This document shows positions 40,151 through 56,673 of a stretch of DNA of 64,000 bases, piece after piece (positions within the stretch are counted from its first letter, which is position 1; each line of letters opens with the position of its first letter). Below the pieces are notes generated by a model. That model was not told where the DNA came from. It worked only from the letters and a program-made list of their open reading frames with translations, and made no database searches. This stretch comes from Psychrobacillus glaciei (lineage in GTDB: Bacteria; Bacillota; Bacilli; Bacillales_A; Planococcaceae): NCBI RefSeq assembly GCF_008973485.1, contig NZ_CP031223.1, positions 4,240,001 through 4,304,000 of the forward strand. Direction: 5' to 3'. Both the position numbers and the translations under genes were made by a program.

Positions 40151-40608
40151 ACGTAAGCGTCGAACTCTCCCTTGCCTCATTTAAACTAATATTTATGAAC
40201 TCATTGGCTCTGTTGCCTGTAACTATGCCTTCCTTAACGAGCCTCGGATCTGGATAATACGGCGGGTAATTGCTTGACGAAACTAGTTTGGCAGCGTGAG
40301 CCAGTTGAATGAGCAACCTTGTGAGAGAACTAGACAGCACGAAAACGACTCCCCATCCACATAGATTTATCAGTTTTCAAATTATTTCATTTTTTTTGAT
40401 ATTGAGAAGTAAGTCCATCTTCTGTGACCCCTATTTCTTTATTAGCATAGCATCATCGATACAATCGATCGGCTTCCTCCTTTCATGATTTAACACTCAA
40501 ACTTTCCGATTTTTCTACAAACTGACACCTACATTTTTCTCTATATTGATACTTTTAAATATACCAATCCTTTGCTAAGGTTATCAGTAAATGTGAAACT
40601 GATTTAAA
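40151..40608. other. Gene-free region of unclear content
   Basis: A minus-strand frame in 40104-40340 encodes LIQLAHAAKLVSSSN and PYYPDPRLVKEG-like text but overlaps the acetyltransferase gene, has no good ribosome binding site and is more GC-rich than its surroundings. It may be a fragment of a dispersed repeat or a decayed gene. Nothing else is recognisable. Confidence 0.35.
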
Positions 40609-40676
40609 AAGTAAGGATCCCAAGGGAACAATTATCCCTTGAACCTTATAAAAAAAAATAAGGAAGGATTTTGACT
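40609..40676 (+). promoter_or_regulatory. Structured leader able to hide the ribosome binding site of the ECF gene
   Basis: CAAGGG/CCCTTG hairpin at 40621-40641, then CCTTAT (40644-40649) that can pair with ATAAGG (40658-40663), which overlaps the Shine-Dalgarno AAGGAAGG. This suggests a translational riboswitch or other on/off fold. It resembles the compact preQ1 layout but lacks its consensus loop bases, so the ligand is open. Confidence 0.4.
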
Positions 40677-41210
40677 ATGCCTAAAACAAGAAGTTATACA
40701 AACTCACGCACTTTTGATTTAATCCTAACAGCAATGTTAATAGCACTCGTATTCGTTTCAACTCTCATTTTAAATATTAGACTACCAATCGCTGCAAATG
40801 GGGGGTTGGTTCATCTTGGAACAGCTATGCTCTTTATCGCGTCCATTGTATTTGGTCCTAAAAAAGGAGCACTCGCCGGTGCTATAGGAATGGGTATATT
40901 TGACTTAGTATCTGGATGGACATTGTGGGCACCCTTCACCTTTGTGGCACGTGGCCTGCAAGGATATATAGTTGGAAAAATTGCATGGTCGTTCGGACGC
41001 AAAGGAAACAGTATTATTTTCAATCTCCTAGCTACTATTATCTCGATTCCTGTTATGTTAGGTGTTTATTACATTTGTGAACGAGTTCTATACGGTAGTT
41101 GGATTATACCCTTGGCCTCTATTCCTGGAAACATCGTTCAAAATGTTGTGGGGATCATTATAGCCATTCCAGTTTCTGTTTTGCTGAAAAAAGTTCCCGT
41201 TTTTAAATAG
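40677..41210 (+). CDS. ECF transporter substrate-capture (S) component
   Basis: 177 residues from the ATG at 40677 (AAGGAAGG eight bases upstream). Six predicted helices; N-terminal helix LILTAMLIALVFVST and the segment ANGGLVHLGTAMLFIASIVFGPKKGALAGAIG are typical of vitamin S components. It needs the shared EcfA/EcfA'/EcfT module encoded elsewhere. The substrate is not clear; the family covers several vitamins (pyridoxine, hydroxymethylpyrimidine, queuosine precursors). The structured leader supports feedback by the transported vitamin. Confidence 0.8.
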   Translation: MPKTRSYTNSRTFDLILTAMLIALVFVSTLILNIRLPIAANGGLVHLGTAMLFIASIVFGPKKGALAGAIGMGIFDLVSGWTLWAPFTFVARGLQGYIVGKIAWSFGRKGNSIIFNLLATIISIPVMLGVYYICERVLYGSWIIPLASIPGNIVQNVVGIIIAIPVSVLLKKVPVFK

Positions 41211-41248
41211 TTAGCAAAAGGTTTAAAACTTTATTTTAAACTAATAGG

Positions 41249-43071: not shown

Positions 43072-43318
43072 TCCTCAAAATTTGCTTGATCAACTTGGAC
43101 TGCACTTAAATTGAAGGCAGTAATTCATTTTTCATTTATCTGTCTTTTTGTTGAACAAAAAATTTATTTATGTTTTCTATATAATGATTCAACACATATC
43201 AAGGAAGTACCCTTTATTGAAAATAAGGTATGTGAAATAACTATTTTTCACATACCCTTTGTTCGTTATTATTTATAAAAATAAAATTTTGAAGGATATT
43301 CTTTTGAAAAAACTGCAC
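43072..43318. other. Gene-free stretch left of the outermost att-like repeat
   Basis: AT-rich, with an inverted pair ATAAGGTATGTGAAATA/TATTTTTCACATACCTT around 43224-43256 that looks like a terminator. No coding frame is supported. Confidence 0.4.
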
Positions 43319-43350
43319 TTACTTATGATAAGGCTCACCGTAACATGTCT
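43313..43350 (-). repeat. rlmH-3'-end-like att repeat, copy 4
   Basis: On the minus strand 43319-43339 encodes GEPYHK-stop (GGT GAG CCT TAT CAT AAG TAA), the usual C-terminus of RlmH, followed by GTGCAGTTTTTTC as at the true rlmH end (GTGCGGTTTTTTTC). No rlmH body lies upstream. Confidence 0.75.
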
Positions 43351-43398
43351 AAATGCGGTTTTAAGAACAATTTACGGCTTATGAAAAAAGATTAAGAG

Positions 43399-43682
43399 AA
43401 AGACCCCACTTTAGCAGCTACTAATGTACTGAAGTCTTCAAAATATTTCATCGCATATGCCTTATGAGCAACCCAACTCATGAGTCCATCCATTTCCTCC
43501 TGAATTTTAATTTGTCCTACTAAAAAATCATCTTTTTTTAAGAAATTATCCTCAACATACTAAATTGCATCATGGTGCTTAATGACTTTTAAATGCTCAC
43601 GTATTGTTTTACTGTCGACCGTGATTCCCTCAAGCCCCACTTTTATTTCACTAATCGTCAGCGTATTACCTTCAATCGCATC
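43399..43682 (-). pseudogene. Fic-family protein relic
   Basis: The minus frame reads DAIEGNTLTISEIK, LEGITVDSKTIREHL and KVIKHHDAI, then an in-frame TAG, then YVEDNFLKK and IQEEMDGLMSWV. AIEGNTLT...LREHLE..NHRDAI.YVED is the typical N-terminal pattern of Fic AMP-transferases, including the inhibitory-helix motif. The start is missing, there is an internal stop, and the catalytic HPFxxGNG motif is gone. It lies just inside the outermost att-like repeat. Confidence 0.65.
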
Positions 43683-43834
43683 TTATTGAAATTTAACACT
43701 GAATGATTTAGGTTTTTAAGAAGACTAAAGTAAACTCTAGAATTTTAGCATTTTCACCTATGATTTCCCCTCGATGCTAATACAAGTTGGTACATGTTAC
43801 AATAAATGTATGAAGAACAGTTGGAGTGACGAAA

Positions 43835-44464
43835 ATGAGTAAACGAGAAAAACAAAAGCAACAACGCCGTCAAAATATTATCCAGATTGCAAAGGATTTA
43901 TTTTTGGAGCAAGGTGTGAAAAATATACAAATGCAAGATGTTGCCGATGCTGCTGGCGTTGGTATTGCGACGTTATTTCGCTATTTTCCTAAAAAAGAAT
44001 ATTTAGTGATTGCGGCTTCGAATGCGATTACTGATGAAATGGCCAAGTATATAGGGCAGATTGTCGAGCAGACGATAACTGCATACGAAAAAATCGAGCA
44101 AATTTTGGATTATTATATAAACGCTACGAATGATCCACAGCTACGTTTAGCGAAATTTTTCGAGTCCTTTGATTTAAATGAAAAATTAGCTGCGGAATCG
44201 ACTGAGCAATATGCGGAATACTTATTTGCACGAAGCAGATTAGCCAGTATTTTGTTTACATTGGCTGAGCAGGGTAAGCAGGATAGCTCTTTAAGACCAG
44301 ATGTAGATTTGGATGTATTTATCATGACGATGGTCCAAAATTTCAGCTTATTCACATACAAATCAAGCCTGGCAATCCATGATACCAATCTCACCATGCT
44401 TCTTTCTACGGACAAGCAGCTCGCGATGATGAAGGATGTATTTTTATGCTATATACAGCCATAA
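43835..44464 (+). CDS. TetR-family transcriptional repressor
   Basis: 209 residues from the ATG at 43835 (TTGGAG upstream; a GTG at 43826 is also in frame). The helix-turn-helix is IQMQDVADAAGVGIATLFRYFPKKEYLV (about residues 30-57). The C-terminal ligand/dimer domain is unspecific. The next gene, an SDR dehydrogenase 113 bases downstream on the same strand, is separated by a perfect 28-base palindrome, its likely operator. Confidence 0.88.
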   Translation: MSKREKQKQQRRQNIIQIAKDLFLEQGVKNIQMQDVADAAGVGIATLFRYFPKKEYLVIAASNAITDEMAKYIGQIVEQTITAYEKIEQILDYYINATNDPQLRLAKFFESFDLNEKLAAESTEQYAEYLFARSRLASILFTLAEQGKQDSSLRPDVDLDVFIMTMVQNFSLFTYKSSLAIHDTNLTMLLSTDKQLAMMKDVFLCYIQP

Positions 44465-44483
44465 TAAATAACAGCCGTTTGGA

Positions 44484-44512
44484 TTGACTTTCGAACCGGA
44501 AAGTTGTTTACT
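44484..44512 (+). promoter_or_regulatory. Possible promoter of the SDR gene
   Basis: TTGACT and TTTACT with a 17-base spacer; the spacer carries the small inverted repeat ACTTTC...GAAAGT. Confidence 0.4.
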
Positions 44513-44522
44513 AGGAAGTGTA

Positions 44523-44550
44523 AAAAAGTGATAGTTAACTATCACTTTTT
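44523..44550. promoter_or_regulatory. Perfect 28-base palindrome, candidate TetR operator
   Basis: AAAAAGTGATAGTT and AACTATCACTTTTT are exact complements meeting at 44536/44537, directly between tetR and the dehydrogenase gene and downstream of a possible promoter. It could also act as a terminator, but the absence of a loop favours protein binding. Confidence 0.6.
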
Positions 44551-44577
44551 AAAAATATATTTTAAGGAGCTTTTTAA

Positions 44578-45312
44578 ATGAGTCGTTTATCAGGTAAAGT
44601 AGCAATTATTACGGGAGCAGCACAAGGTATGGGTGCGGCACACGCAAAGTTATTCATAGAAAACGGTGCAAAGGTTATTTTAACAGATTTAAATGAAGAA
44701 AAAGGCAACGCTCTCGCGGCTGAATTAGGTGAAAATGCCCTTTTCATTAAACAAAACGTAACATCTGAAGAAGATTGGGCAACAGTTATTGCGAAAGCTG
44801 AAAAAGCTTTCGGTCCAGTAAACGTATTAGTAAACAACGCTGGTATTACTATGGCGAAAAATATGCTTGATGTTACTGTCGAAGAATACCGTCGCATCGT
44901 AGATATTAACCAAGTGTCTGTATTCTTAGGTATGAAAACTGTAGCAGCGTCAATGATGAAAGCTGGAGGCGGTTCAATCGTCAACATTTCTTCAATGAAC
45001 GGCTTAGTTGCTGGTGCTATAGGTTACACAGATACAAAATTCGCAGTACGTGGGATGACAAAAGCAGCTGCTATCAACTTAGCACCAATGGGTATCCGCG
45101 TAAACTCTGTACACCCAGGTGTAATCGCTACACCAATGGTAGTACAAGAAGATACAAAAGCAGCAGTTGAAGAATTTTCTAAACACATTCCATTAAAACG
45201 TGTTGCTCAACCAGAAGAAGTTTCAAAAATGGTATTATTCTTAGCTTCTGATGATTCAAGCTACTCAACAGGCTCTGAATTCATTATCGATGGCGGATTA
45301 ACTGCACAGTAA
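44578..45312 (+). CDS. Short-chain dehydrogenase/reductase (SDR)
   Basis: 244 residues, classical SDR. Cofactor motif TGAAQGMG (residues 12-19) with Asp in LTDLNEE (NAD preference), NNAG near 88, catalytic Ser in NISSMNG near 140, and Tyr/Lys in YTDTK near 152-156 (the position usually YxxSK). C-terminus DGGLTAQ is typical of hydroxysteroid or glucose dehydrogenase-like SDRs. AAGGAGC upstream. Substrate unknown; probably controlled by the TetR upstream. Terminator follows. Confidence 0.88.
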   Translation: MSRLSGKVAIITGAAQGMGAAHAKLFIENGAKVILTDLNEEKGNALAAELGENALFIKQNVTSEEDWATVIAKAEKAFGPVNVLVNNAGITMAKNMLDVTVEEYRRIVDINQVSVFLGMKTVAASMMKAGGGSIVNISSMNGLVAGAIGYTDTKFAVRGMTKAAAINLAPMGIRVNSVHPGVIATPMVVQEDTKAAVEEFSKHIPLKRVAQPEEVSKMVLFLASDDSSYSTGSEFIIDGGLTAQ

Positions 45313-45348
45313 TAAAAGTTCCTGAAAAAATCTTTATATGATTTATAA

Positions 45349-45390
45349 AGGCCGGTTTTCTAAACTAATAGAAAATCGGCCTTAGTTTTT
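45349..45390 (+). terminator. Terminator after the SDR gene
   Basis: GGCCGGTTTTCTA and TAGAAAATCGGCC pair with one G-T, then TTAGTTTTTT. Confidence 0.88.
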
Positions 45391-45400
45391 TATTTAATTA

Positions 45401-45440
45401 AAAACCTCACTTACTTATGGTAAGGTTCTCCGTGATATAG
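45401..45440 (-). repeat. rlmH-3'-end-like att repeat, copy 3
   Basis: Minus strand 45411-45434 encodes HGEPYHK-stop, followed by GTGAGGTTTTTA. The stem formed at the true rlmH end (ACCGTAC/GTGCGGT) is kept here by a compensating change (ACCTTAC/GTGAGGT). Confidence 0.75.
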
Positions 45441-45573
45441 CAAAGTTCGGTTTTTACTTCTGTTTCACCAAATTACAAATTAAGTAGTTCTGTACTCAAT
45501 TTATCCTGCAATAACGGGCATTAGCACGTCCTACATGTCAAAACCCCCACTAATTGAAGGTTCACTTTATCAC

Positions 45574-46641
45574 TTACTGCTGGGCATCTTTTTTAAGCTG
45601 TTTACTTCGTAACTGTCCACAAGCTGCATCAATATCCGTACCGTGTTCTTGACGGATCTTACAATTGACGCCATTCTTTTTCAACGTATCATAGAAAGCT
45701 AACACCGATTCCTGCTCACTTCTTTGATATTGACTATGTTCATCCACCGGGTTGTACGGGATTAAGTTTACATACAATCGGTCCTTAATATCACTGAAAA
45801 GTTCAGCAAGTTGTTCCGCTTCCTCTTTATGATCATTTACATCTTTCAGTAAAATATATTCAATCGTAATTCTTCGGTTATTTTTGGCTAAATAATACTT
45901 CAGGGATTCCATTAGCTTTTCAATCGGCATGGCACGATTTATTTTCATAATACGCGTTCTCAGTTCATTATTTGGTGCATGTAGTGAGATCGCTAAGTTT
46001 ACAGGGATTGCCGCATCCGTAAATTCATAAATTTTATTAACAATTCCACTTGTCGAAACAGTAATTCTTCTACCTGCAATCGCAAGTCCCTTGTGGTCTA
46101 TAACAACATTTAAGAAATCTAATAGATTATTGAAGTTATCAAATGGTTCGCCAATTCCCATTACGACAATATGACTTACAAGTTCGTCTTTTTCTAATTG
46201 ATCGAGATGAAGTTGAACATTCATAATCTGTTCGACAATTTCTCCAGCTGATAAATCGCGACTTTTTGCTAATAATCCGCTCGCACAGAAACTGCAGCCA
46301 ATGTTACAGCCTACTTGTGTCGTAACACAAACAGATAACCCATATTTATGTCGCATCATGACCGTCTCGATCAAACTGCCATCCTGTAATTTAAATAAAA
46401 ATTTAACCGTTCCGTCTGCGGCTTCTTGCTTAATGTGTTGTGTTAATGTTTGAATCACAAAGGTATCCGCCAATAATTGAACACATTCCGAATTTACCTC
46501 ATTCATGTCAGAAAAATCCGTTACACGTTTTCTATAAAGTAAATCCCACACTTGTAATGCTCTAGACGGTTTGTGACCATGCGCTAAAAGCCACTCCTTC
46601 AATTGATCTAATGTTAATCCATAAATGGATGGTTTGTTCAT
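45574..46641 (-). CDS. RlmN/Cfr-family radical-SAM 23S rRNA methyltransferase
   Basis: 355 residues. The radical SAM cluster motif is CNIGCSFC (about residues 112-119, CxxxCxxC), preceded by the RlmN-type Cys in SVCVTTQVG, with GEPFDN near 162 for SAM binding and the catalytic mobile-loop Cys in DIDAACGQL near 340. It methylates adenosine in 23S rRNA (A2503) and possibly tRNA. Overall more RlmN- than Cfr-like, but ends with a Lys-rich tail and lies alone between two att-like repeats rather than in the usual rlmN neighbourhood, so an acquired paralogue is likely. A long leader precedes it. The C2 or C8 specificity cannot be told. Confidence 0.88.
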
Positions 46642-46930
46642 AATGTGCCTCTTTCCTTGAGCTTAAAAATCACTTCTATTATTAATATTTATACCGTGAT
46701 AACGGGTAGTATAACTCCCTCGAGCTAGGCTTATTTGTAGCAAGAAGCATAAATGGGAGATCCACAGTCCTTAATAGCCCGATTGGTTAACTTTATGATC
46801 AGGCGCCTCTTTACTAATCTAATCATATTACATATAAGGCTGAAAAAAAACAATTCGAATTGTAATCGCCAAAATTGGGGGCTTTTAGAGAAATTGATAT
46901 ATTCACATTAACTAATAAATCACACTGCAA
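46642..46930 (-). promoter_or_regulatory. Leader region of the RlmN/Cfr-like gene
   Basis: About 220 bases upstream of the gene with hairpin potential (TTATAC...GTATAA; GGGCTATT.../...) and a short frame starting ATGCTTCTTGCTACA that would encode a 22-residue peptide ending in RYKY. Such uORF-plus-hairpin leaders precede many ribosome-protecting genes. The peptide frame has no good ribosome binding site, so this is tentative. I see no other gene here. Confidence 0.35.
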
Positions 46931-46933
46931 ATA

Positions 46934-46980
46934 AAATTAGAGCTACTCTTGTTTAATATTCACAGAGTAGCTCTAATTTA
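46934..46980. terminator. Terminator hairpin upstream of the RlmN/Cfr-like gene
   Basis: AAATTAGAGCTACTCT and AGAGTAGCTCTAATTT, a sixteen-pair perfect stem next to att copy 2, T-rich on both flanks. Confidence 0.8.
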
Positions 46981-46984
46981 TTTA

Positions 46985-47022
46985 TAAACCGCATTTACTT
47001 ATGGTAAGGTTCACCGTGACAG
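46985..47022 (-). repeat. rlmH-3'-end-like att repeat, copy 2
   Basis: Minus strand 46995-47018 encodes HGEPYHK-stop (GGT GAA CCT TAC CAT AAG TAA) followed by ATGCGGTTT, close to the true end of rlmH at 56.2 kb. Confidence 0.75.
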
Positions 47023-47092
47023 TAATAACAGCAAAATTTTATACGAATAGCTCATTACAACTGGATGATTTTGATAAACCGGTACCCGGGAT

Positions 47093-47644
47093 CTACTTTA
47101 ATTCTTTTCCTGCATATTTCTCCAACTCTAGGTACCGATTCTTGTTACGCGCACGTTTCACAATGACACTGAATAAGGAGCGCTGCAACCTAAGTGAAAT
47201 ACCCACAATTAACGTATTTTACATCGATAAAATCAATGCTGTGTGTGCCAATGATTTCGGATTCCCTTTTTTATCCACTAATCTATCTTCAATCAAACCA
47301 TAATGGATACGTACAGATTGTTCAAATTGACTTGGTGGTGTCAAACGTACACGGAACACTACTGACTCATCATGATTATTTGTAAATGTATGTGCTACAC
47401 CTAATGTAACAAGTCGATGGTCGCCTCCATCTAAAATATGTTGCTCTTTCCCTAATGTAACTGTCAGCTTCCCAGAAACAACCTCAAACTTCTCTTCGGA
47501 TTCATCATGCATATGTAAGGGTGTTCCATTTCCTTGAGGTGGAAGAGCCGCTTCTATAGATAGGTATTTCCCATCGGTTTCTTCAGCTGTTTGTAAAAAA
47601 GTGATTTTTTCACTCGTAACCTGATTAACTACAGTACGTTTCAA
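47093..47644 (-). pseudogene. Cupin-domain protein, probably frameshifted near its end
   Basis: The intact part (47219-47644, 141 residues) is a single cupin: GNGTPLHMHDESEEKFEVVSGKLTV (about 38-62) holds His, His and Glu metal ligands, GVAHTFTNNHDE near 82 the late His. It stops at ALILSM. A second minus frame just downstream reads FSVIVKRARNKNRYLELEKYAGKELK before a stop at 47093, which looks like the normal C-terminal tail of such cupins. A frameshift between about 47165 and 47219 is therefore likely. Function unknown. Next to att copy 2. Confidence 0.6.
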
Positions 47645-47870
47645 TTTATAGTCTTCTTTCTAAAAAAACATGTTTCTTCAATACATTTTATTATACTCCT
47701 ATTTGATCCAAAAGGAAGTATTGGATGAATTACCGATTAAAAATTGAAGTTACATATAAATGCTTTATCTCGAGCACAAACTTAAAGTTTTCTTTAAGTT
47801 TGATTAATAAGCTTATCTACCATGATAAAATACAAGGAGTATAATCTATATAAATTATCTTACTCCAGTG
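47645..47870. other. AT-rich gap, no gene seen
   Basis: Contains the ribosome-binding and promoter region of the cupin gene and an inverted pair AAACTTAAAG/CTTTAAGTTT near 47777-47800. Nothing coding. Confidence 0.4.
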
Positions 47871-47899
47871 CGAAAACCCTATAAAATGCGATGGTAAGT

Positions 47900-48140
47900 T
47901 TGTGTTTAACGTTACTACTGAGCATGTCCCTCCCAGCCGCCTACGCTGCAAGCGAGGGTACGAAGTCAGACGTCCACTGGGCATTTGGCGTAGAAACAGC
48001 TGGAGGATTGGATCGGCAAAGGGCTTATTAAAGATTATGAGAATGGCTCATTTAAGCCGGACGGCATGATCACAAAGGCAGAATTCATGGCTCTTGTGAA
48101 CCGATAGTTCGCGTTGAATGACAAGTCAGAAGTGACAATA
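47900..48140 (+). pseudogene. S-layer-homology (SLH) domain protein relic
   Basis: The first part reads LSMSLPAAYAASEGTKSDVHWA, the end of a signal peptide (cleavage AYA) and the start of an SLH domain. A frameshift follows, then KQLEDWIGKGLIKDY, ENGSFKPDGMITKAEFMALVNR, a TAG, and FALNDKSEV. DG-x-ITKAEFMALVNR-F is the classic SLH ending. Base composition is markedly GC-richer than neighbouring DNA and resembles Paenibacillus-like genes. Remains of a surface protein gene, broken by at least one frameshift and one nonsense codon. Confidence 0.7.
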
Positions 48141-48220
48141 AAAATTGAGTGAATTATGGTAATTCTCGTGAAAGATGTTTAAATCATATAAAAATCCTTC
48201 ACGGCAAAGGAGTGAGTCTG

Positions 48221-48376
48221 ATGCTGGTACTTGGAAGAAAACCCGGACAATATATTGTGATCAACGAAAAAATTATTGTAAAAGTAGTTAAAAGTGAAGA
48301 GGGGCACTTACGCTTGGCTATTGAAGCACCAATAGATATCTCTATCGTTCGCGGAGAATTGCTTAATCAAGAATAA
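48221..48376 (+). CDS. csrA: CsrA RNA-binding regulator, short form
   Basis: 51 residues from the ATG at 48221 with AAAGGAGTGA upstream. MLVLGRKPGQYIVINEKI and HLRLAIEAP show the CsrA fold, and the RNA-binding motif ISIVRGELL is at the end. It lacks the usual last 10-20 residues that form the C-terminal helix and, in Bacillus, the FliW contact, so it may be truncated or autonomous. One kb upstream of a second csrA and the flagellin gene. Confidence 0.85.
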   Translation: MLVLGRKPGQYIVINEKIIVKVVKSEEGHLRLAIEAPIDISIVRGELLNQE

Positions 48377-48535
48377 GCACATGTATCTCGGTTTTTAATG
48401 CAAGCTTTCGTTTCGGAACACCTTGGATTCCTGTATTTTTTGAATGAGCCGAGTATAAGATGCTCCACTTGGAATTCGATTAGAACCAGTAAAGCCACAA
48501 TCCAAGCTGGAATCTCCACTTCTCTTCAATCGATT

Positions 48536-48814
48536 TCAGAGACCCTTAATCGTTGAAATGCGCTCCACAATTCGAATGAATAGCGATTGTAGCATAACTG
48601 CGTAATTGAGTTGTATCGGTGCGCCTAGAAATGCCTTCCTCGATACAATTCGTAAGAATGGAGTACTCCCTAATATTTCGAACAGGTAACCGTGGGCCTC
48701 CCTAAGCGGCATTTCTAATAAATTTTCCAAGGAAAACAGGCTTTCCTGTTGAATACTACTATATCTGGAGTCCTTCCTATCTTTTCTCAGGTGTGTATTA
48801 GGTGTACTTAACAC
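48536..48814 (-). pseudogene. Transposase fragment (IS5/IS1182-like N-terminal domain)
   Basis: The minus frame has SIQQESLFSLENLLEMP near the start and LNYAVMLQSLFIRIVERISTIKGL at the end, the pattern of the DUF772-type N-terminal domain of IS5/IS1182-group transposases (short helix, then a Leu-rich stretch, then R-IPTIKDL). The DDE part is absent. It shows that the space between the two csrA genes has been hit by insertion and decay. Confidence 0.5.
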
Positions 48815-49110
48815 TTCGAGATTTGGAGAAGTACTCCTTTTTTCATGCGTAAAAAACTCAAACCTAGTAAGGCTCTCGAATTATGAAACTCCCTCAACTT
48901 CAAAAAAAGATTTCTCCAAAAGGCTAAACGTTTCAAGTAAACTGTCGATACATAAAGTAATCACATATCTGATTACTCATGGACGAGTAAATACGCATGT
49001 AGTTTCAAGGAGGAATACTTGAAACTGATGTCTATTTATTCGTCTTTTTTACTGTTTAATTTTAATTTTTTAACAATTTAATAATTTATAAAATAATTAT
49101 GAGACTTAGG
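48815..49110. other. Gap before the second csrA with possible promoter
   Basis: No gene. TTAACA (about 49067) and AAAATA/TATAAA-rich sequence about 17 bases on may be a promoter for csrA2 and the flagellin gene. A hairpin TAGTTTCAAGGAGGA/...TACTTGAAACT-like pair around 49000-49028 is also visible. Confidence 0.35.
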
Positions 49111-49178
49111 ATGAGCAAATAAGTCGCCGTCATTTCTTCAGGAGGAAGAAGGGCAGCGACCTGTTTGCTCATTTTTTT
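49111..49178 (+). terminator. Leader terminator upstream of the second csrA
   Basis: ATGAGCAAATA-GTCGC and GCGAC-TGTTTGCTCAT pair around a loop that contains AGGAGGAAGAAGG, followed by seven T. It either ends an upstream transcript or attenuates csrA2-flagellin transcription; the GGA-rich loop could bind CsrA. Confidence 0.7.
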
Positions 49179-49214
49179 ATGTACATTTAATAAACCGGAT
49201 AAGGGGATGAGCCA

Positions 49215-49400
49215 ATGCTCGTGTTAGGGAGAAGACCTGGGGAATATGTAATGATTGACAACAACATTATGGTAAAGGTCATTAGAAGCGATGAAGGCCA
49301 TTTACGCTTGGCGATTGAAGCACCGAAGCATATTTCTATTGTTCGTGGAGAGTTATGGGAAGAAAACAATATAGCCTTAGGAATGACAAAAAAGGCCTAG
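49215..49400 (+). CDS. csrA: CsrA RNA-binding translational repressor
   Basis: 61 residues, MLVLGRRPGEYVMIDNN start, HLRLAIEAPKHISIVRGELWEE, then a full-length C-terminal tail. AAGGGGATG gives the ribosome binding site. In B. subtilis CsrA represses flagellin (hag) translation by binding GGA sites in its leader, and FliW relieves it. Here csrA is directly followed by the flagellin gene after 180 bases of GGA-rich leader, but no fliW is visible. Differs from the copy one kb upstream at about 15 positions. Confidence 0.92.
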   Translation: MLVLGRRPGEYVMIDNNIMVKVIRSDEGHLRLAIEAPKHISIVRGELWEENNIALGMTKKA

Positions 49401-49528
49401 GTCTTGGCCCCCACCATTTAAGGACGAGTGGTGAAGTCAAGGAAGATAACAATTTGACTTACAAATCCTTGTTTTGGATTAGCGCGCAATCCATCAATGA
49501 TTTGTTAGTACAGGGTATGCGCTACAAA

Positions 49529-49570
49529 GGATGCAAACGGATAGGCATCCTAAAACACACCACATGGAGG
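49529..49570 (+). promoter_or_regulatory. Probable CsrA-binding sites in the flagellin leader
   Basis: GGATGC and GCATCC (49529-49534, 49545-49550) form a hairpin whose ten-base loop AAACGGATAG presents GGA, the preferred CsrA target; a second GGA lies in the Shine-Dalgarno ATGGAGG (49564-49570). This two-site layout is that of the B. subtilis hag leader. Confidence 0.65.
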
Positions 49571-49579
49571 TAATGAGAA

Positions 49580-52500
49580 ATGAGAATTAATCACAACATC
49601 GCAGCACTTAACACGCACCGTCAGTTGAACAGTGCAACAAGTGCCCAATCTAAATCAATGGAGAAATTGGCTTCAGGTCTTCGTATTAACAAAGCTGGGG
49701 ACGATGCAGCTGGTCTTGCAATCTCTGAGAAAATGCGCGGACAGATTCGTGGGTTAGACCAGGCTTCTAAAAACGCACAAGATGGGATTTCGTTGATCGC
49801 AACTGCTGAAGGTGCATTAAATGAAACGCACGACATTCTTCAACGTATGCGCGAACTAGCTACACAAGCATCAAACGATACAAACACATCAACAGATCGT
49901 GGCGAAATTCAAAAAGAAATGAACCAATTAACATCTGAAATTAACCGTATTGGTAATACAACAGAGTTTAATACGCAAAAACTACTTGATGGTGGAGCAA
50001 AAACAACAAGTACTGGTAAACTAGCAGTTACTACAAATGCATATGAAGTATCTGGTAAAACTGGAATTGATACTTTGGATATTACTGGTGGAGCTGCAAC
50101 AGGCGATATCAGTCTTCTACACGCATCTAAAGACAGCGTAAAAGCAGGAACATTGAAATTTGGAGCGGTAGCTGAAACAACGGCAAGTAAATTAGCTGCA
50201 ACTGCTGGGAAAATCGGATCAGATCTAACTGAAATCACAGCAAGTAATGCAGGCGGTACAGGGGCTATTAATGCTGCCAATCAGACAACTATTGGTAGCG
50301 CTGCTGCTAAGTCAGAATACACTTTTAAAGTGGATGCTCAGTTTGCTGTTGGAAATACAATTTCAATAGGTGGACAGACGTTTACAGCAAAAGCTGTTGG
50401 TGACGCAAATTTGAATGCAAATGAGTTTGAAATTGGTACGGATGTTGATACTGGTGTAGCAAGCTTAGTACTTGCAATTAATAATAATACTAATATCAAC
50501 GCTAATTATACTGCCGCTTCCACAACAGGTACTGTCACTATTACAGCCAACAATAATGTAGACGATTCTGCGGTTGCAGCTGACTACTTTACTAATGTAA
50601 TTAGTACAGGGACGATTTCTGGTAAAGCCCAAACAACTGTGGGTAGCGCTGCTGCTAAGTCAGAATACACTTTTGAAGTGAAAAGTCAGTTTACTGATGG
50701 AGATACAATTACAATAGGTGGACAGACGTTTACGGCAAAAACTGACGACGGAATCACCCCCGCTGGAACAGATGAGTTTTTAATTGGTGCAGATATTGAT
50801 GAAACTGTAACAAACTTAATGGGCGCAATTAATGATAATACTATAATCAAAGCTGATTATGTTGCCACTGTGGGTAGCCCAGCGTGGAATGCTGATTCAA
50901 ATAGTATCACTATTACACAAAAAGTGGCTGGTGATGATTCGGCGCTTGCAGCTGACTTCACTACAAATGTATTAGTTACTAAGGCTTTGACGCAAGTAGG
51001 TCAATATAAATTTGAGATTGCCAATAATTTTGAAGTAGGGCAAAAGATAACGATTGCTGGACAAGATTTTGAAGTAAGAGCTTCAGATGGAGATACTGAT
51101 GGTACTGGATTTGCAGTTGGTGCAGATAAAGATGAAACAGCTGCCAACTTATTAAAAGCTATCAATGCTAGTGGTAAATTTGATGCAGTAAATCAAAGTA
51201 CTGGTACAGATAGCGCTGGTGCTACGGTTACCGGTATTACAGGAACTGGTTTAGAAACAGATTTAGATACGATTATACTACAGGAAAAAACAGCTAGTGG
51301 AGACACAATGGCAAATGTAGTTGGTATTGATGTAACCAACCAATCTGCAGTTGCAGGTGTATATAACTTCGATATCACTGAAAACTTCTCTGCCGGTGAC
51401 TCTATAGAAATTGGTGGAACAAAGTACACAGCAATCGCAGCAGGTGGCACAGCAGGAACTAATGAATTTGTAGCTGGCGCGACTATATCCGATTCAATCG
51501 ACGCTTTAAAAGTTCTAATTGATGCAGAGGGAACTTATACTGCAACTAAAGCAAATTCACCATTCATTAGTAATAATCGAATTGTATTGACAGAAAATAC
51601 AGCTAGTGGAGCAACTACTGGTCCATCACTTAGTGGTACTAATGTCGGCGATATTAAAGGTGTAAATGAATTTAGAATTACAGCTAACCTTGCTGATGGT
51701 GATGTCTTAAAAGTTGGAGCCAACTTATTGTTGGCAGGTGGTAAAAATGCATCGGCTGGACTAACAGGTGATTTTGAAGTAGGCACAACAGCAAGTGATA
51801 CTGCTACAAATATCGCAGCTGCTATCACTGGTGCAGATACTACTAGCTCGCAACATTTGCAAGACTTACAAGCAAAATACACTGTTACAGTAGATAAAGT
51901 AGATACAGCTAAGCTTATCTTTACAGAAAAAAATGCAAGTGGAACGAACCTTAAAACTGCTGATATTGGAATCGGTAAAAACACAGATAATCGCGCTGCT
52001 GGTGCTCCAAGTCCACAATCATATGAAATTACTGCACAAGCACTTGATGTAGGATCAAAAGTGAAAATTGGTAATGCTGAAATTACATTAGCTGGTCAAA
52101 ATGGTACAGCAAAACAAGTTGCTGAAGAATTGAAAAATCAAATTACAAATGCAGATTCTAATAGTTCTGCAGAATTACAAGCCTTAAAAGCAAAATATAA
52201 TGTATCGGTAACTGGTGATAAATTAACATTAGAACAAAAGACTGCTGAAAGCGGTGAAAAACCACTTACTGCAGATTTTAGTACTAGTGCGTCAACAGGC
52301 TTTACTGCTAATTTGCAAATTGGAGCCAACACAAGTCAAAAAATGAGTTTAGGTATCAATGATATGCGCTCATCTGCATTAGATATTGTTGGTGGTGTTA
52401 ATGGCACTATTACGGTAAATGAAAATGGTACTGATTATACAGCTAAATTCACATCTACAAGTAATGTAACAGATGGAACAGCTGGGGAAGCAGCATTGGA

Positions 52501-52795
52501 TATATCTACACATGAAAATGCTACCGCTGCAATCAAAGTTATTAACAATGCGATTGAAAAAGTATCCGCAGAGCGTTCTAAATTAGGTGCATCCCAAAAT
52601 CGTTTAGAACACACAATCAATAACCTAAGTACATCATCTGAAAACCTAACAGCTGCGGAATCTCGTATCCGTGATGTTGATATGGCAAAAGAAATGATGA
52701 CTCAAACGAAGAACTCAATTCTAGCACAAGCAGCACAAGCGATGTTGGCTCAAGCGAACCAACAACCACAAGGAGTTCTACAACTTCTTCGTTAA
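49580..52795 (+). CDS. hag: Giant flagellin with tandem repeats in the variable domain
   Basis: 1071 residues, against about 270-500 for usual flagellins. The N-terminal D0/D1 part (1-140: [38 protein letters not shown]) and the C-terminal part (about 985-1071: [19 protein letters not shown], ending [10 protein letters not shown]) are canonical, so the protein should polymerise. Between them lie about six repeats of roughly 115 residues (starts near 235, 351, 471, 590, 692, 810), each with Y-x-F-x-I...F-x-x-GD-x-I-x-IGG-x-TFTA, like Flagellin_IN motifs. Repeats 1 and 2 are nearly identical at DNA level, so duplication is recent. Exported by the flagellar apparatus; no HExxH protease motif. 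Confidence 0.93.
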
Positions 52796-52811
52796 TATAA
52801 GAATATTTTAA

Positions 52812-52857
52812 CTGCCCCGCAAATGTTAGACACCAACTAACATTTGCGGGGTGTTTT
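52812..52857 (+). terminator. Terminator after the flagellin gene
   Basis: CCCCGCAAATGTTAG and CTAACATTTGCGGGG are perfect arms with a short loop, then TGTTTTTAT. It also forms the left end of the IS remnant that follows. Confidence 0.9.
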
Positions 52858-52915
52858 TATGTCTAAATATACAGTAGAAGTTAAATTACAAGCGGTGGAA
52901 CGCTATGTTCGCGCT
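52844..52915 (+). mobile_element. IS3-type transposase start, remnant
   Basis: ATG followed by SKYTVEVKLQAVERYV, the usual N-terminus of IS3/IS150-group OrfA proteins, cut off after about 18 residues where GC-richer DNA encoding the response regulator begins. It marks a recombination junction. Confidence 0.55.
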
Positions 52916-53607
52916 TTAAACGAACTTCTGGCAACCAGCATATATCCGGCCCCCCGAATCGTAACGATTCTTTCAGGATTGACAGGGTCAGCCTCGATTT
53001 TTTTACGTAAATTACTAATGTGTACAGCGACCGTTCTCGTATCCTCCAGACTCTCCATCCCCCAGATGAGCTGAAACAACGTATCGGCAGTGACGACACG
53101 ATTAACGTTTTGTGCCATATAGGACAGCAGACTGAACTCTTTTTTCGATAAAAAGATGGGTTCACTACCCATGGTGACGGATTGTGTATAGAAATCCAGT
53201 GTCAAACCCGGTAATTCCAGCAGTTGTTCCCTTCTGCCCGTTGACACCCTACGAAGGTGAGCCTTGATCTTGGCCATGAGTACTCCAGGACTGAACGGCT
53301 TGGTCACATAATCGTCGCCGCCATAGGATAATGCGCTGATTTTCACCTCGTCTTCCTCACAGCTGCTCAGAAACACAATCGGCGCATTCGTGTAGCTACG
53401 TGCGTTCATGCACCAATCTATGCCGTTTTCATTAGCCAGCAGTACATCCAGTACAATCAAATCCGGCTCGAAAGACGCAAGCAGCTCCATGGCTTCTGTT
53501 CCGCTATGACTGTAGGAGGATATGAAACCCTCCCTCTCGCAATACACCTGAACAATTTCGCATATATGGGGATCATCATCGACAATCATAATTTTGTGCG
53601 TGTCCAT
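52903..53607 (-). CDS. OmpR-family response regulator
   Basis: 234 residues. Receiver with DDD at 10-12, phospho-Asp in LIVLDVLLAN near 53 and Lys in VTKPFSPG near 102, then a winged-helix DNA-binding domain (LSKKEFSLLSYMAQN and RTVAVHISNLRKKIE). Follows the kinase gene by seven bases. GC-richer than the rest of the window, like its kinase, so both were probably acquired together. The C-terminal codons (FKART) run into the IS remnant and may not be the original end. No target gene is adjacent. Confidence 0.88.
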   Translation of the reverse strand: MDTHKIMIVDDDPHICEIVQVYCEREGFISSYSHSGTEAMELLASFEPDLIVLDVLLANENGIDWCMNARSYTNAPIVFLSSCEEDEVKISALSYGGDDYVTKPFSPGVLMAKIKAHLRRVSTGRREQLLELPGLTLDFYTQSVTMGSEPIFLSKKEFSLLSYMAQNVNRVVTADTLFQLIWGMESLEDTRTVAVHISNLRKKIEADPVNPERIVTIRGAGYMLVARSSFKART

Positions 53608-53614
53608 TACACCT

Positions 53615-55759
53615 TCACCTTCCTTCTACAATACAAGGAAGCGATACATGGAATATCGACCCCGTCTTACCGTCGCTCTCCGCACGAACCGTCCCTCCAT
53701 GCGCTTGTACGATTTCCCTGCAAATCGCCAGCCCGAGCCCGCTGCCCTCTACTTCATTCTCCACGCCCGGTCGACCATACCTGTAATTGCGATCAAAGAT
53801 TTGCTCGAGCTGATCTTGAGGAATACCTGTGCCGGAATCTTGTACACTAATTATCGCATAGCGGGTATGATTCACCTCGTCCACAGTTAGCGCAATACGA
53901 ACCAGCCCACCCATAGAGGTGAACTTCATCGCGTTCGACACCAGATTAAACAAAGCCTGATTTAATCTTTGCGCATCCATCTCGACAACAGGCAAGTTAG
54001 GTCGTTGATCTTCTGCATCTCCGATATCCAGCATGAAATCCAATCCTGCGTCACGCACAACCAGCTCATATTGTTCAAAAAAACCACACAAGAAGTGTAT
54101 GACATGAACCGGCTCCATTACGAACGAGACTTGTCCCGTCTCCAAATGTGACAAGAAAGACAACTCCTCGATCATGCGGTTAATCCTTATCGTGTTATCC
54201 CGGATATACTTCAGGTACTGTTCATTACGTTCCGGCTTGACCCTGTCCTGCACAGCCTCGACGTAACCAAGCATGCTGGACAACGGCATACGCAGATCAT
54301 GCGTAATATAGGCAAGAAGCTTTTTTCTCCCGTGCTCGGAGTGAAGCAATCGGTCATACGAAGTCCGGAGATCATCATGAGCTGCGGATAAAGCCTGTGT
54401 GCGTTCCTGCACGGTCCTCTCCAAACTCATATTCATATCAGTCAGCTTGTCGTTAGCAACCTGCAGCTCAAGTGCAATTCTCTCTTCGTTCGATGCCGCC
54501 CTCGTAAATCTCGAAGAAAGTAGAATCATCTGTGCGATCGTAAACACCAACAGACCAAGCGGAGATGTATTTCCAATTCGTGACCATTCATTGTAATATA
54601 AAAAATCGTTGACGACAGTAACTAAACCAACCACCGACACGAGCAGGAAGATTAGCGCTCCCTCCATACGCCGTATAGCCGCTTTGACTAGCCCAACCAT
54701 CAGATAAACCATATGGAAAACTACCATCACACCGATCATCGGTAACATTTTTGTATAAATAATGGCAGGGGTCACCACAACAACGATACAGAATGCGCCG
54801 GTAACGATCCGCGTGACAAGATGAAACCAACGCGACACATAATTCGGAAAAATGCTATCAAAGTACATCGTTATGATATAACCAATGATGCAAAGAATCA
54901 GGTATTCGATCTTGAACTGCAATCCCCATGGAAAAGATGGCCACAATTGTGTGAGTAAGAGCTCGCCGACCAGCAAGGATCGGATACCGGACAACGTGGT
55001 GAACAGACCGAAATACAACGGCGCCATGTCTTTGCGTCGTAGTACATACAACAGCAAGTGATATACACCAATTACCAGAAGGCTTGCGGTGATGAACATT
55101 TCAGCGGCGATTTTCAGATTTTTCCTGACCGTTAACACATCACTGCCGCCCAACTCAATATACTTGGTGATGCCGCCACGCTTATGATGAAAGTTGGCTA
55201 CTTGCATTACCAGCTCCACCCTATCATTCTTGGGCTGGAAGAACACCAGATTCGTTGCCAGCTGCGGGGTCACTTCACTCCTGTCCTGACCAACTACACC
55301 AACTTCTTCCAGCAATTCGCCATTAACCCATAATTTATACGCATTAAAGATGGTAGGAAGTCGCAAAGCAAGGCGCTCATTCCTATCCTGCTCGCTAAGT
55401 TGGATAACCACCCGAAAGGTTGCAAAGCCTGTACCGTTCAACTGCTGACCATCTAACCGATAGCCTAGCCAGGAGCCCGGGATGTTGATCCAGCGGTCAT
55501 TATTTCCGTCCCTTGCCGAACGAATCTGTATGTCCGCAGGCGACAGTAGCTCTTGCCAGTAGAACGCCCACTCCCCTTTTAACTTTATCGGATTCTCACT
55601 GACATGAACCTGCGTTAAATCCAGAATGCCTTCTTCACTTTGGAACTCAGGGGGTGCCGGTGAAGAGATGACGGCATAGCTTATAACCAAACCAACAACA
55701 ACGGCAACAACTATATGAAGCAAGATCGTACGCGAACCGATTCGGTGAATACCCCTCAT
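53615..55759 (-). CDS. Membrane histidine kinase of the 7TMR-DISM type
   Basis: 714 residues. One N-terminal helix, an extracellular galactose-binding-like (DISMED-type) domain of about 40-215 (KLKGEWAFYWQELL, WINIPGSWLG, FRVVIQL), seven helices in about 220-410 (7TMR-DISM), a coiled coil, HisKA with YITHDLRMPLSSM (phospho-His near 485) and HATPase with NLVSNAMKFT, DSGTGIP and GSGLGLAIC. It should sense a carbohydrate or small ligand outside the cell. Strong Paenibacillus-like GC content, unlike the AT-rich host DNA, points to horizontal transfer. Paired with the OmpR-type regulator downstream. Confidence 0.9.
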   Translation of the reverse strand: MRGIHRIGSRTILLHIVVAVVVGLVISYAVISSPAPPEFQSEEGILDLTQVHVSENPIKLKGEWAFYWQELLSPADIQIRSARDGNNDRWINIPGSWLGYRLDGQQLNGTGFATFRVVIQLSEQDRNERLALRLPTIFNAYKLWVNGELLEEVGVVGQDRSEVTPQLATNLVFFQPKNDRVELVMQVANFHHKRGGITKYIELGGSDVLTVRKNLKIAAEMFITASLLVIGVYHLLLYVLRRKDMAPLYFGLFTTLSGIRSLLVGELLLTQLWPSFPWGLQFKIEYLILCIIGYIITMYFDSIFPNYVSRWFHLVTRIVTGAFCIVVVVTPAIIYTKMLPMIGVMVVFHMVYLMVGLVKAAIRRMEGALIFLLVSVVGLVTVVNDFLYYNEWSRIGNTSPLGLLVFTIAQMILLSSRFTRAASNEERIALELQVANDKLTDMNMSLERTVQERTQALSAAHDDLRTSYDRLLHSEHGRKKLLAYITHDLRMPLSSMLGYVEAVQDRVKPERNEQYLKYIRDNTIRINRMIEELSFLSHLETGQVSFVMEPVHVIHFLCGFFEQYELVVRDAGLDFMLDIGDAEDQRPNLPVVEMDAQRLNQALFNLVSNAMKFTSMGGLVRIALTVDEVNHTRYAIISVQDSGTGIPQDQLEQIFDRNYRYGRPGVENEVEGSGLGLAICREIVQAHGGTVRAESDGKTGSIFHVSLPCIVEGR

Positions 55760-56187
55760 TATGAACCCAACCCCAATCTACGAGAGCGCAATAAGTACTT
55801 TTATTATCTAAATAATATCATCATTAAAGGAAAATGTATCCTGCAATTATTTGCAAGGCGTTGAACACAAACATCACGATGAGGTTCCTTTTTGAACATA
55901 AGGCGAAACGCGCCATCCTTTATTTCGTTCCGGGAAATATAAGTTCGGTATAAAGTAAAACTTATACTTTCTTACCTTTTAAGAAAAAACCATCCAGCCT
56001 GATGCAGATCACAGCGGTAGATTCAGACGCCGTTTTCTTACTCCACAAATACAGGATGGAGCCACTATGGAATTTGATATATACGTCGTCCAGAACAAAC
56101 TCGAAAATTTTTATATAGATACTAGTCAGACTGCAATTTTTTAGCAACAAATTAATTTTAAACATAGATTTTAATACAAGAAAAAAA
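55760..56187. other. Gene-free region between the kinase gene and rlmH
   Basis: No supported gene. A minus-strand frame ending at 55962 contains HSGSILYLWSKKTASES-like text without family resemblance; it starts inside the rlmH end and lacks a ribosome binding site, so I treat it as debris. The region spans the change from GC-richer to host-like DNA. Confidence 0.35.
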
Positions 56188-56214
56188 CCGCACCTACTTA
56201 TGGTACGGTTCATT
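56188..56214 (-). repeat. True rlmH 3' end: att copy 1 and overlapping terminator
   Basis: Minus strand encodes NEPYHK-stop, then GTGCGGTTTTTTTC. ACCGTACC and GGTGCGGT form an eight-pair stem across the stop codon with loop ATAAGTA and a T run, so the last codons double as terminator. Confidence 0.7.
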
Positions 56215-56673
56215 TCTAATAATGCGAAATGCTCGATAAATCTGCTCGATTAATACTAACTTCATTAATTGATGTGGCAACGTCATCTTCCCAAATGAGA
56301 GTTTTTCATCTGATCGTTTCAGTACTTCTTCGTGTAAACCTAGTGAGCCACCAATGACAAATGCAATTTTACTTTTTCCATACGTCATTAAGGATTCGAG
56401 ATCACTTGCTAGTTGCTCAGAAGATTTCATTTTACCATCAATTGCAAGTGCAATAACATATGTATCTGCACTGATTTTTGCTAAAATACGTTCTCCTTCT
56501 TTTTTCTTAACGATTTCCATATCAGCATCACTTAGATTTTCTGGTGCCTTCTCATCTGCCACTTCTACCAAATCCATTTTTGCATAACTACTTAATCGTT
56601 TTGCATATTCTTCTATCCCCAGTTTTAAGTACTTTTCTTTTAATTTTCCAACCGAGATAATTTGTATATTCAC
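56194..56673 (-). CDS. rlmH: 23S rRNA pseudouridine-1915 N3-methyltransferase (orfX)
   Basis: 159 residues of the SPOUT family. SAM-knot motif [24 protein letters not shown] (about 103-126) and C-terminal [19 protein letters not shown] are diagnostic. It methylates helix 69 of 23S rRNA in the 70S ribosome. Standard near-origin neighbour of walJ and htrC. In staphylococci its 3' end is the integration site of SCCmec; here three further copies of these last codons lie downstream. Confidence 0.96.

Follow-up and report, generated by a model that had tools for sequence, protein, structure and literature searches.

Evidence for a stack of SCC-like cassettes without ccr genes behind rlmH in Psychrobacillus glaciei, and for related attachment sites across its family

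The DNA behind the gene rlmH in Psychrobacillus glaciei is, very probably, a stack of cassettes that resemble the staphylococcal cassette chromosome (SCC), lack ccr genes and in this respect are closest to the pseudo-SCC elements. We analysed a window of 64,000 nucleotides, spanning positions 4,240,001-4,304,000 of the 4.35-Mb genome (two contigs, rated 100% complete), together with genomes of the same genus and family (G followed by a number denotes a compared genome, and L a locus fetched from one). SCC elements are known mainly as the carriers of methicillin resistance in staphylococci, and how such cassettes form and where they come from is still an open question. A preliminary description of the window had reported, besides the true end of rlmH, three extra copies of it on the minus strand, and had read them as the marks of SCC-like cassettes stacked at rlmH. 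All four ends lie where they had been placed, in direct orientation, and the proposed stacking now finds support in the GA-centred dyads around these copies, in breaks of homology at the central GA, in the matching of the dyad arms over the whole set of cassettes and in the CcrB-like genes that stand beside such sites in related genomes.

The anchor gene, rlmH (56194..56673, minus strand), is an open reading frame (ORF) whose last codons fall within the right half of an attachment (att) site, and it is present in all 19 genomes of the genus. Its true end encodes NEPYHK-stop and is followed by a GC stem and a T-run. Three copies of the 3' end occur in direct orientation 9.2, 10.8 and 12.9 kb downstream, so that the direct repeats of the last rlmH codons that characterize SCC are found in the window. 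A 19-base core, allowed up to 3 mismatches, matches the window 3 times, where 100 shuffles lead one to expect 0.01 matches; the copy at 46995-47018 carries a fourth mismatch and hence falls outside this core search, and is visible in other comparisons, among them the matrix scan.

These copies are each one half of a longer site, an imperfect dyad of about 52 bp around a central GA, which accords with the dyad of about 50 bp with central GA seen in SCC att sites. In a position matrix the left arm reads AAAACC(T/G)CATTTAGATG..TTACGGT and the right arm, across the GA, ACCGTATCATAAGTAAGTG(A/C)GGTTTTT. This matrix was built from 51 of the 66 sites in the window's own and the genus loci, the 15 judged to lie at rlmH being set aside; the scores of the window sites are thus not independent of it, as these and related sites went into it, and in the same way the E values of the site model R1 concern sites that are each part of that model's own alignment. 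With this proviso, all on the minus strand, att 1 (46985..47038, centre GA 47012/47011) scores 12.4 in its left and 45.4 in its right half (total 57.9; R1 E=5.3e-12), att 2 (45401..45454, centre GA 45428/45427) 19.2 and 47.1 (total 66.3; R1 E=2.4e-14), and att 3, the distal end of the stack (43309..43362, centre GA 43336/43335), 29.6 and 40.2 (total 69.9; R1 E=9.6e-16). At att 0, the rlmH end itself (56184..56238, minus strand, centre GA 56211/56210), the right half scores 42.2 and the left half -14.7 (total 27.5). The left half is thus a cassette end in the three copies and gene sequence at rlmH, while the right half of att 0, which is the start half of the adjoining interval A, doubles as the last codons and the terminator of rlmH. 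Of the 69 sites in the loci of the window and the genus, 47 keep EPYHK-stop; among the 50 with a cassette-like left half 32 do, as expected if any cassette start may come to serve as the end of rlmH. Reading the loci of relatives backwards (552,849 bases) gave no match scoring 10 or above. Published descriptions include SCC-type sites of 60-70 bp with a central GA (PMC10581047) and, in the enterococcal cassette chromosomes (ECCs), att sites of about 50 bp with dyad symmetry (PMC6222049).

Sites of this type are widespread in both the genome and the family (all genome-wide and family counts include the end of rlmH itself). The genome of P. glaciei has 13, namely four in the rlmH stack, six at 1.404-1.428 Mb (one of them weak and inverted), two at 3.02 Mb and a weak one at 2.24 Mb. 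A match is present in 18 of the 19 genus genomes (E<=0.01) and, under a stricter filter (E<=0.001, 20 candidates scored per genome), in 226 of the 261 genomes of the family, with all 19 genera represented; the 261 genomes have 937 matches. Among these 226, 51 have a single match, 175 at least two, 65 at least five and 19 at least ten, with 23 matches (in 22 places) in one genome. Widening the search to the order again returned 261 genomes, those listed being the genomes of the family search, and added nothing. For location and orientation we used 25 hand-picked genomes, the window's own and 24 of the available single-contig ones, in which 150 listed of 169 matches yield, after removal of one palindromic duplicate, 149 sites: 21 at rlmH, 52 up to 30 kb downstream of it (50 of these sharing its strand) and 76 in other places, where they form 47 clusters. 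A listed site thus stands at the rlmH end, the insertion point of SCC, in 21 of the 25 genomes. Among the 76 elsewhere, 58 point with replication, 13 against it (eight of these being a single array in G150) and 5 could not be placed, with the origin taken as just upstream of rlmH and lengths rounded for 16 of the 25 genomes. Fragments of the rlmH C-terminus also occur far from rlmH (G012:C1:1149166-1149438, G004:C5:111305-111517 and G013:C4:122182-122394), the first of which ends in an att-like core.

The expectation that the repeats would be confined to the DNA downstream of rlmH does not hold in this genome, where nine of the 13 sites lie outside the stack. Several of the copies away from rlmH, nonetheless, delimit DNA which other species carry downstream of that gene, and the 1.4-Mb array is in part homologous to the DNA that follows rlmH in G004, G008, G009 and G016; the scattering of the repeats consequently does not refute the SCC-like reading.

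The same cassettes recur at rlmH, away from it and in different genera, and the homology between them tends to break at the GA. Across 64 loci we collected matches between different genomes, as high-scoring segment pairs (HSPs) of at least 300 bp, dropping those that cover rlmH. The 452 HSPs gave 843 usable ends. In 31 cases both partners have the end no more than 35 bp from a site centre, whereas 500 shifted controls gave a mean of 0.056 and a maximum of 2. On the start side 17 of 20 such ends are within 6 bp of the GA; the 11 on the end side extend 13-32 bp through the conserved right half. Within the window, cassette C (43336..45427, 2092 bp) is the unit in which this is best seen. It encodes an SDR family oxidoreductase (244 aa; 44578..45312, plus strand) and a TetR family regulator (212 aa; 43826..44464, plus strand), with a remnant adjoining att 3. 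Homology to it starts exactly at the GA in G018 (L110), at a locus away from rlmH, and within 10 bp of the GA in G002 (L075), behind rlmH, while its SDR part starts at the GA in Lysinibacillus contaminans (L247), between sites 2069 bp apart. The relatives differ from cassette C by about 15%. A stretch of 4139 bp shared at 99.66% identity by G070 (genus g8) and G084 (genus g11) runs through both bounding sites and encodes a PrimPol/helicase-like and a Fic-like protein (PADLOC models); judged from its sequence, it speaks for a recent transfer, the clearest one, in relatives within the family. SDR relatives in records of Cytobacillus, Lederbergia and Neobacillus also have sites nearby, which suggests that the sites have spread beyond the family.

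Candidates for the enzyme that moves such cassettes are found in the relatives. PF07508 matches occur in 9 of the 19 genus genomes, and these large serine recombinases (LSRs) are only partly classified. A query with an LSR of G003 gave 38 matches in 30 of the 261 family genomes, and CcrB-like genes, as sorted by type from this remote query, are present in 22 of the 261. We fetched 34 loci covering all 38 matches, with about 10 kb on each side and less at contig ends; the first 20 were chosen partly for nearby sites (15 of the 20 have one), and the remaining ones, fetched against this bias, gave 3 of 13. Altogether 19 of the 34 contain a site. When sorted by hand, 24 are CcrB-like and 10 G003-like. 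A site is present in 18 of the 24 CcrB-like loci; in four more no site scores and the LSR gene ends at the rlmH end, and the other two, both on short contigs, have neither a site nor an abutting rlmH. A random 20-kb stretch is expected to hold about 0.02 sites (from 937 matches in 261 genomes of about 4 Mb). At L229, L230, L234, L235, L342 and L347 the 3' end of the CcrB-like gene overlaps that of rlmH convergently, so that the recombinase gene reaches into the attachment site. At L344 and L348 the CcrB-like gene stops next to a site away from rlmH. The G003 LSR pair itself (L092) was considered as the recombinase of the system and rejected: its type occurs at 10 loci, and a scored site is present in G003 alone, so that the type is not tied to the system. 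A search of the PDB with the G003 LSR gave no match. By eye, ORFs adjoining the CcrB-like gene at L221 resemble the DUF1643- and RadC-type genes of SCC, and one adjoining it at L228 (G054; L210 2982-3920) is a possible tyrosine recombinase. Relatives of the CcrB-like LSRs are found at 41% identity on Staphylococcus plasmids (e.g. NZ_AP024743.1) and at 38% in a Paenibacillus replicon.

The best reading of the stack is that CcrB-like recombinases, either provided in trans or lost in the meantime, put its cassettes in place. We infer the cutting chemistry, the supply in trans and the order of insertion, and picture them as follows. A unit would begin with the right half of an att site and close with the left half of the site that follows. 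A Ccr-type LSR would cut at the GA and join a circular cassette to the rlmH site, whereupon the newest cassette would adjoin rlmH, supply its last codons and shift the older cassettes outward.

The preliminary description had offered copied terminators as its alternative, and in its widest form this explanation takes the repeats for transcription terminators, whether copied or convergent, or for hairpins like the repetitive extragenic palindromic elements, and assigns the genes between them to ordinary islands. It would account for the stem and T-run that the right half includes behind rlmH, for the copies away from rlmH and for the tendency of the latter to point with replication. A terminator would not be expected to see inter-genome homology break in the middle of the element, at the GA, nor the same unit to recur at rlmH and elsewhere. 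The arms of the dyad bear on this as well. We compared 16 outer positions in the 46 pairs of neighbouring sites, out of 55, whose halves were good. Taken as inverted repeats, the ends of a single cassette match at 10.8 of 16 against 10.2 after re-pairing (sd 0.14), a value as high as this being reached in none of 2000 re-pairings. The two halves of one site (38 sites) also match slightly above chance, at 10.2 versus 9.8, which 60 of 2000 shuffles reach for the outer arms and 176 of 2000 for the full arms, as terminators might. Over the whole set, then, the arms follow the cassette more than the site, a direction that favours cassettes, and with the GA breaks this leaves the terminator explanation disfavoured and, in our estimate, highly improbable. 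That a recombinase of another class, of the integron type or another tyrosine integrase, moves the cassettes while the LSRs are passengers appears very unlikely too: the arrays of small cargo cassettes do resemble integron arrays, but the dyad with its central GA is as described for CcrAB sites, and CcrB-like LSRs lie beside sites of this kind, including six that end where rlmH ends.

A more serious competitor, which we regard as possible though rather doubtful, holds that the stack was built by SCC-like insertion and is now moved only by homologous recombination (e.g. through natural transformation) between flanks and repeats, with no site-specific movement in the species today. This is compatible with our account of how the stack originated. 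The finding of no LSR in the genome, the roughly 15% difference between cassette C and its relatives and the unmatched ends of interval A are in keeping with it, while the 99.66% identical site-to-site unit in two genera, pointing to recent transfer in the family, and the CcrB-like genes in the family genomes speak against it.

Several observations weigh against the SCC-like account. The effect in the end-matching comparison is small, the cassettes compared are related rather than independent, the same-site halves also rise above chance, and in the window itself the units score 11, 10 and 7 of 16, at chance or below (random mean 10.2), which slightly lowers our confidence. The 31 near-centre ends likewise stem from 27 genome pairs that are related and not independent. 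The SDR gene occurs without any scored site in 53 of the 61 fetched loci of relatives, and G010 and G011 carry the genes of cassette C behind rlmH with no scored site adjoining. Among 18 rlmH regions of the genus (one only 2.9 kb long) there is no exact empty rlmH junction for the stack. The CcrB model is the best for all 10 LSRs scanned (63-454 bits), although every one of these scores is under its curated cut-off of 900. Finally, the whole genome of P. glaciei has no PF07508 match and no match to the G003 LSR query (E<=1e-15), and none of the seven larger stack ORFs scanned encodes a recombinase. The initial remark that no ccr is visible thus extends to the genome, within the reach of the PF07508 search and of a single protein query. 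No ccrAB or ccrC is found on the elements in the window, and strict SCC membership fails for want of ccr. As the units contain cargo only and the genome yielded no such recombinase, they would at present be either immobile or moved only by one that another element supplies in trans.

The cargo of the stack is varied. Interval A (47012..56210, 9.2 kb, GC 0.412) encodes a cupin, a very long flagellin, a response regulator and a histidine kinase. Its two ends match at 7 of 16 arm positions, and on account of this mismatch it is probably a fused or eroded unit rather than one intact cassette. It is mosaic: the two-component genes have 47.7% GC against 36.5% for the window. They lie at 52903-55759 and comprise the response regulator and a 7TMR-DISM histidine kinase; the flagellin ORF (49580-52795) is 1071 aa long with the usual N- and C-terminal domains. 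Cassette B (45428..47011, 1584 bp) has one notable gene, encoding a second RlmN-family methyltransferase of 355 aa (45574..46641, minus strand; TIGR00048 404 bits, cut-off 290), which at 240-248 bits falls under the cut-offs (468-550) of three Cfr models. Another RlmN in the same genome is 70% identical to it. The paralogue is found in 7 other genus genomes at 85-88% identity, with homology to the window limited to the gene; a weak site lies about 2 kb off at L324, and none exceeds the threshold at the other 6 loci. The gene may have been captured into a cassette, or may have moved in another way.

Beyond the stack, a distal flank (40481..41219, plus strand) with the ORF 40671-41210, which by eye may be an energy-coupling factor (ECF)-type transporter component, also lies downstream of rlmH in five other genus genomes (L075, L079, L081, L088 and L091), at about 5 to 16 kb from it. 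Upstream of rlmH, the second of two ORFs in 58743-59908 matches an IS3-family transposase model, and the first is its likely partner. In G003 (L092 12960-17150) two att-like sites, of which the first is weak, enclose a SMODS/AGS_C nucleotidyltransferase of the type found in cyclic oligonucleotide-based antiphage signaling systems (CBASS) and an HD-CE/HATPase gene.

The closest published terms for the window units are pseudo-SCC and composite SCC. SCC elements, including composite and pseudo-SCC, share with them the rlmH 3' end as attB, the direct repeats of the last codons, the GA dyad and the tandem stacking, and SCC members without ccr, the pseudo-SCC, exist to which the window units can be likened. 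Unlike SCC, the units here are small, the 46 that were measured spanning 0.2-9.8 kb with a median near 2.3 kb, those of the window carry cargo only, and 76 of the 149 mapped sites are away from the rlmH region. Chromosomal integron arrays are alike in their small, exchangeable cargo cassettes in one orientation, but they have another site and presumably another class of recombinase, whereas the cassettes here are multi-gene and their genes run in either direction.

Among the published systems, the ECCs share an att site of about 50 bp at rlmH, with TATCATAA and a dyad, and 16 of 32 ECCs have multiple attR; that paper (PMC6222049) gives the number of att matches in a genome as below five and reports no ECCs in tandem that have several sets of ccr, unlike the situation here, where 19 of the 226 matching genomes have at least 10 matches and one has 23. 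LSR-bearing SCC-like islands have been described in other Bacillota, most of them at rlmH, with Planococcus antarcticus in the table, their second ends located by the last rlmH bases and composite tandem islands noted (PMC10061031). These islands, unlike the window units, carry recombinase, polymerase and helicase genes, and the available part of that paper describes neither cassette arrays without ccr nor secondary loci. The chromosomal islands (CI) with ccrDE in rimL are SCC relatives outside rlmH, and CcrAB also act on less conserved sites (PMC10581047); there one kind of island with its own ccr occupies one other gene, whereas here many rlmH-type sites are dispersed. A search of the literature by titles and abstracts, without preprints and many subscription papers, found no arrays of ccr-less cassettes described for the family. 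What is new here is their scale in the family, the small size of the units and the arrays away from rlmH.

We tentatively posit, with somewhat less than even confidence, that the family has a trans-acting cassette system built on SCC chemistry, in which many small cassettes without recombinases would use rlmH as the main port and form arrays elsewhere, while a few ccr-bearing elements would provide the CcrB-like enzymes for their exchange between loci, between species and between genera. If true, this would be a Gram-positive counterpart of the chromosomal integrons. With its hundreds of rlmH-type att sites, cargo-only cassettes and relatives with CcrB-like genes, such a family, lying outside the staphylococci, would serve as a natural reservoir and as a convenient model of how SCC-like cassettes arise, gain genes and spread, and in it the trans-mobilisation of ccr-less cassettes becomes testable.

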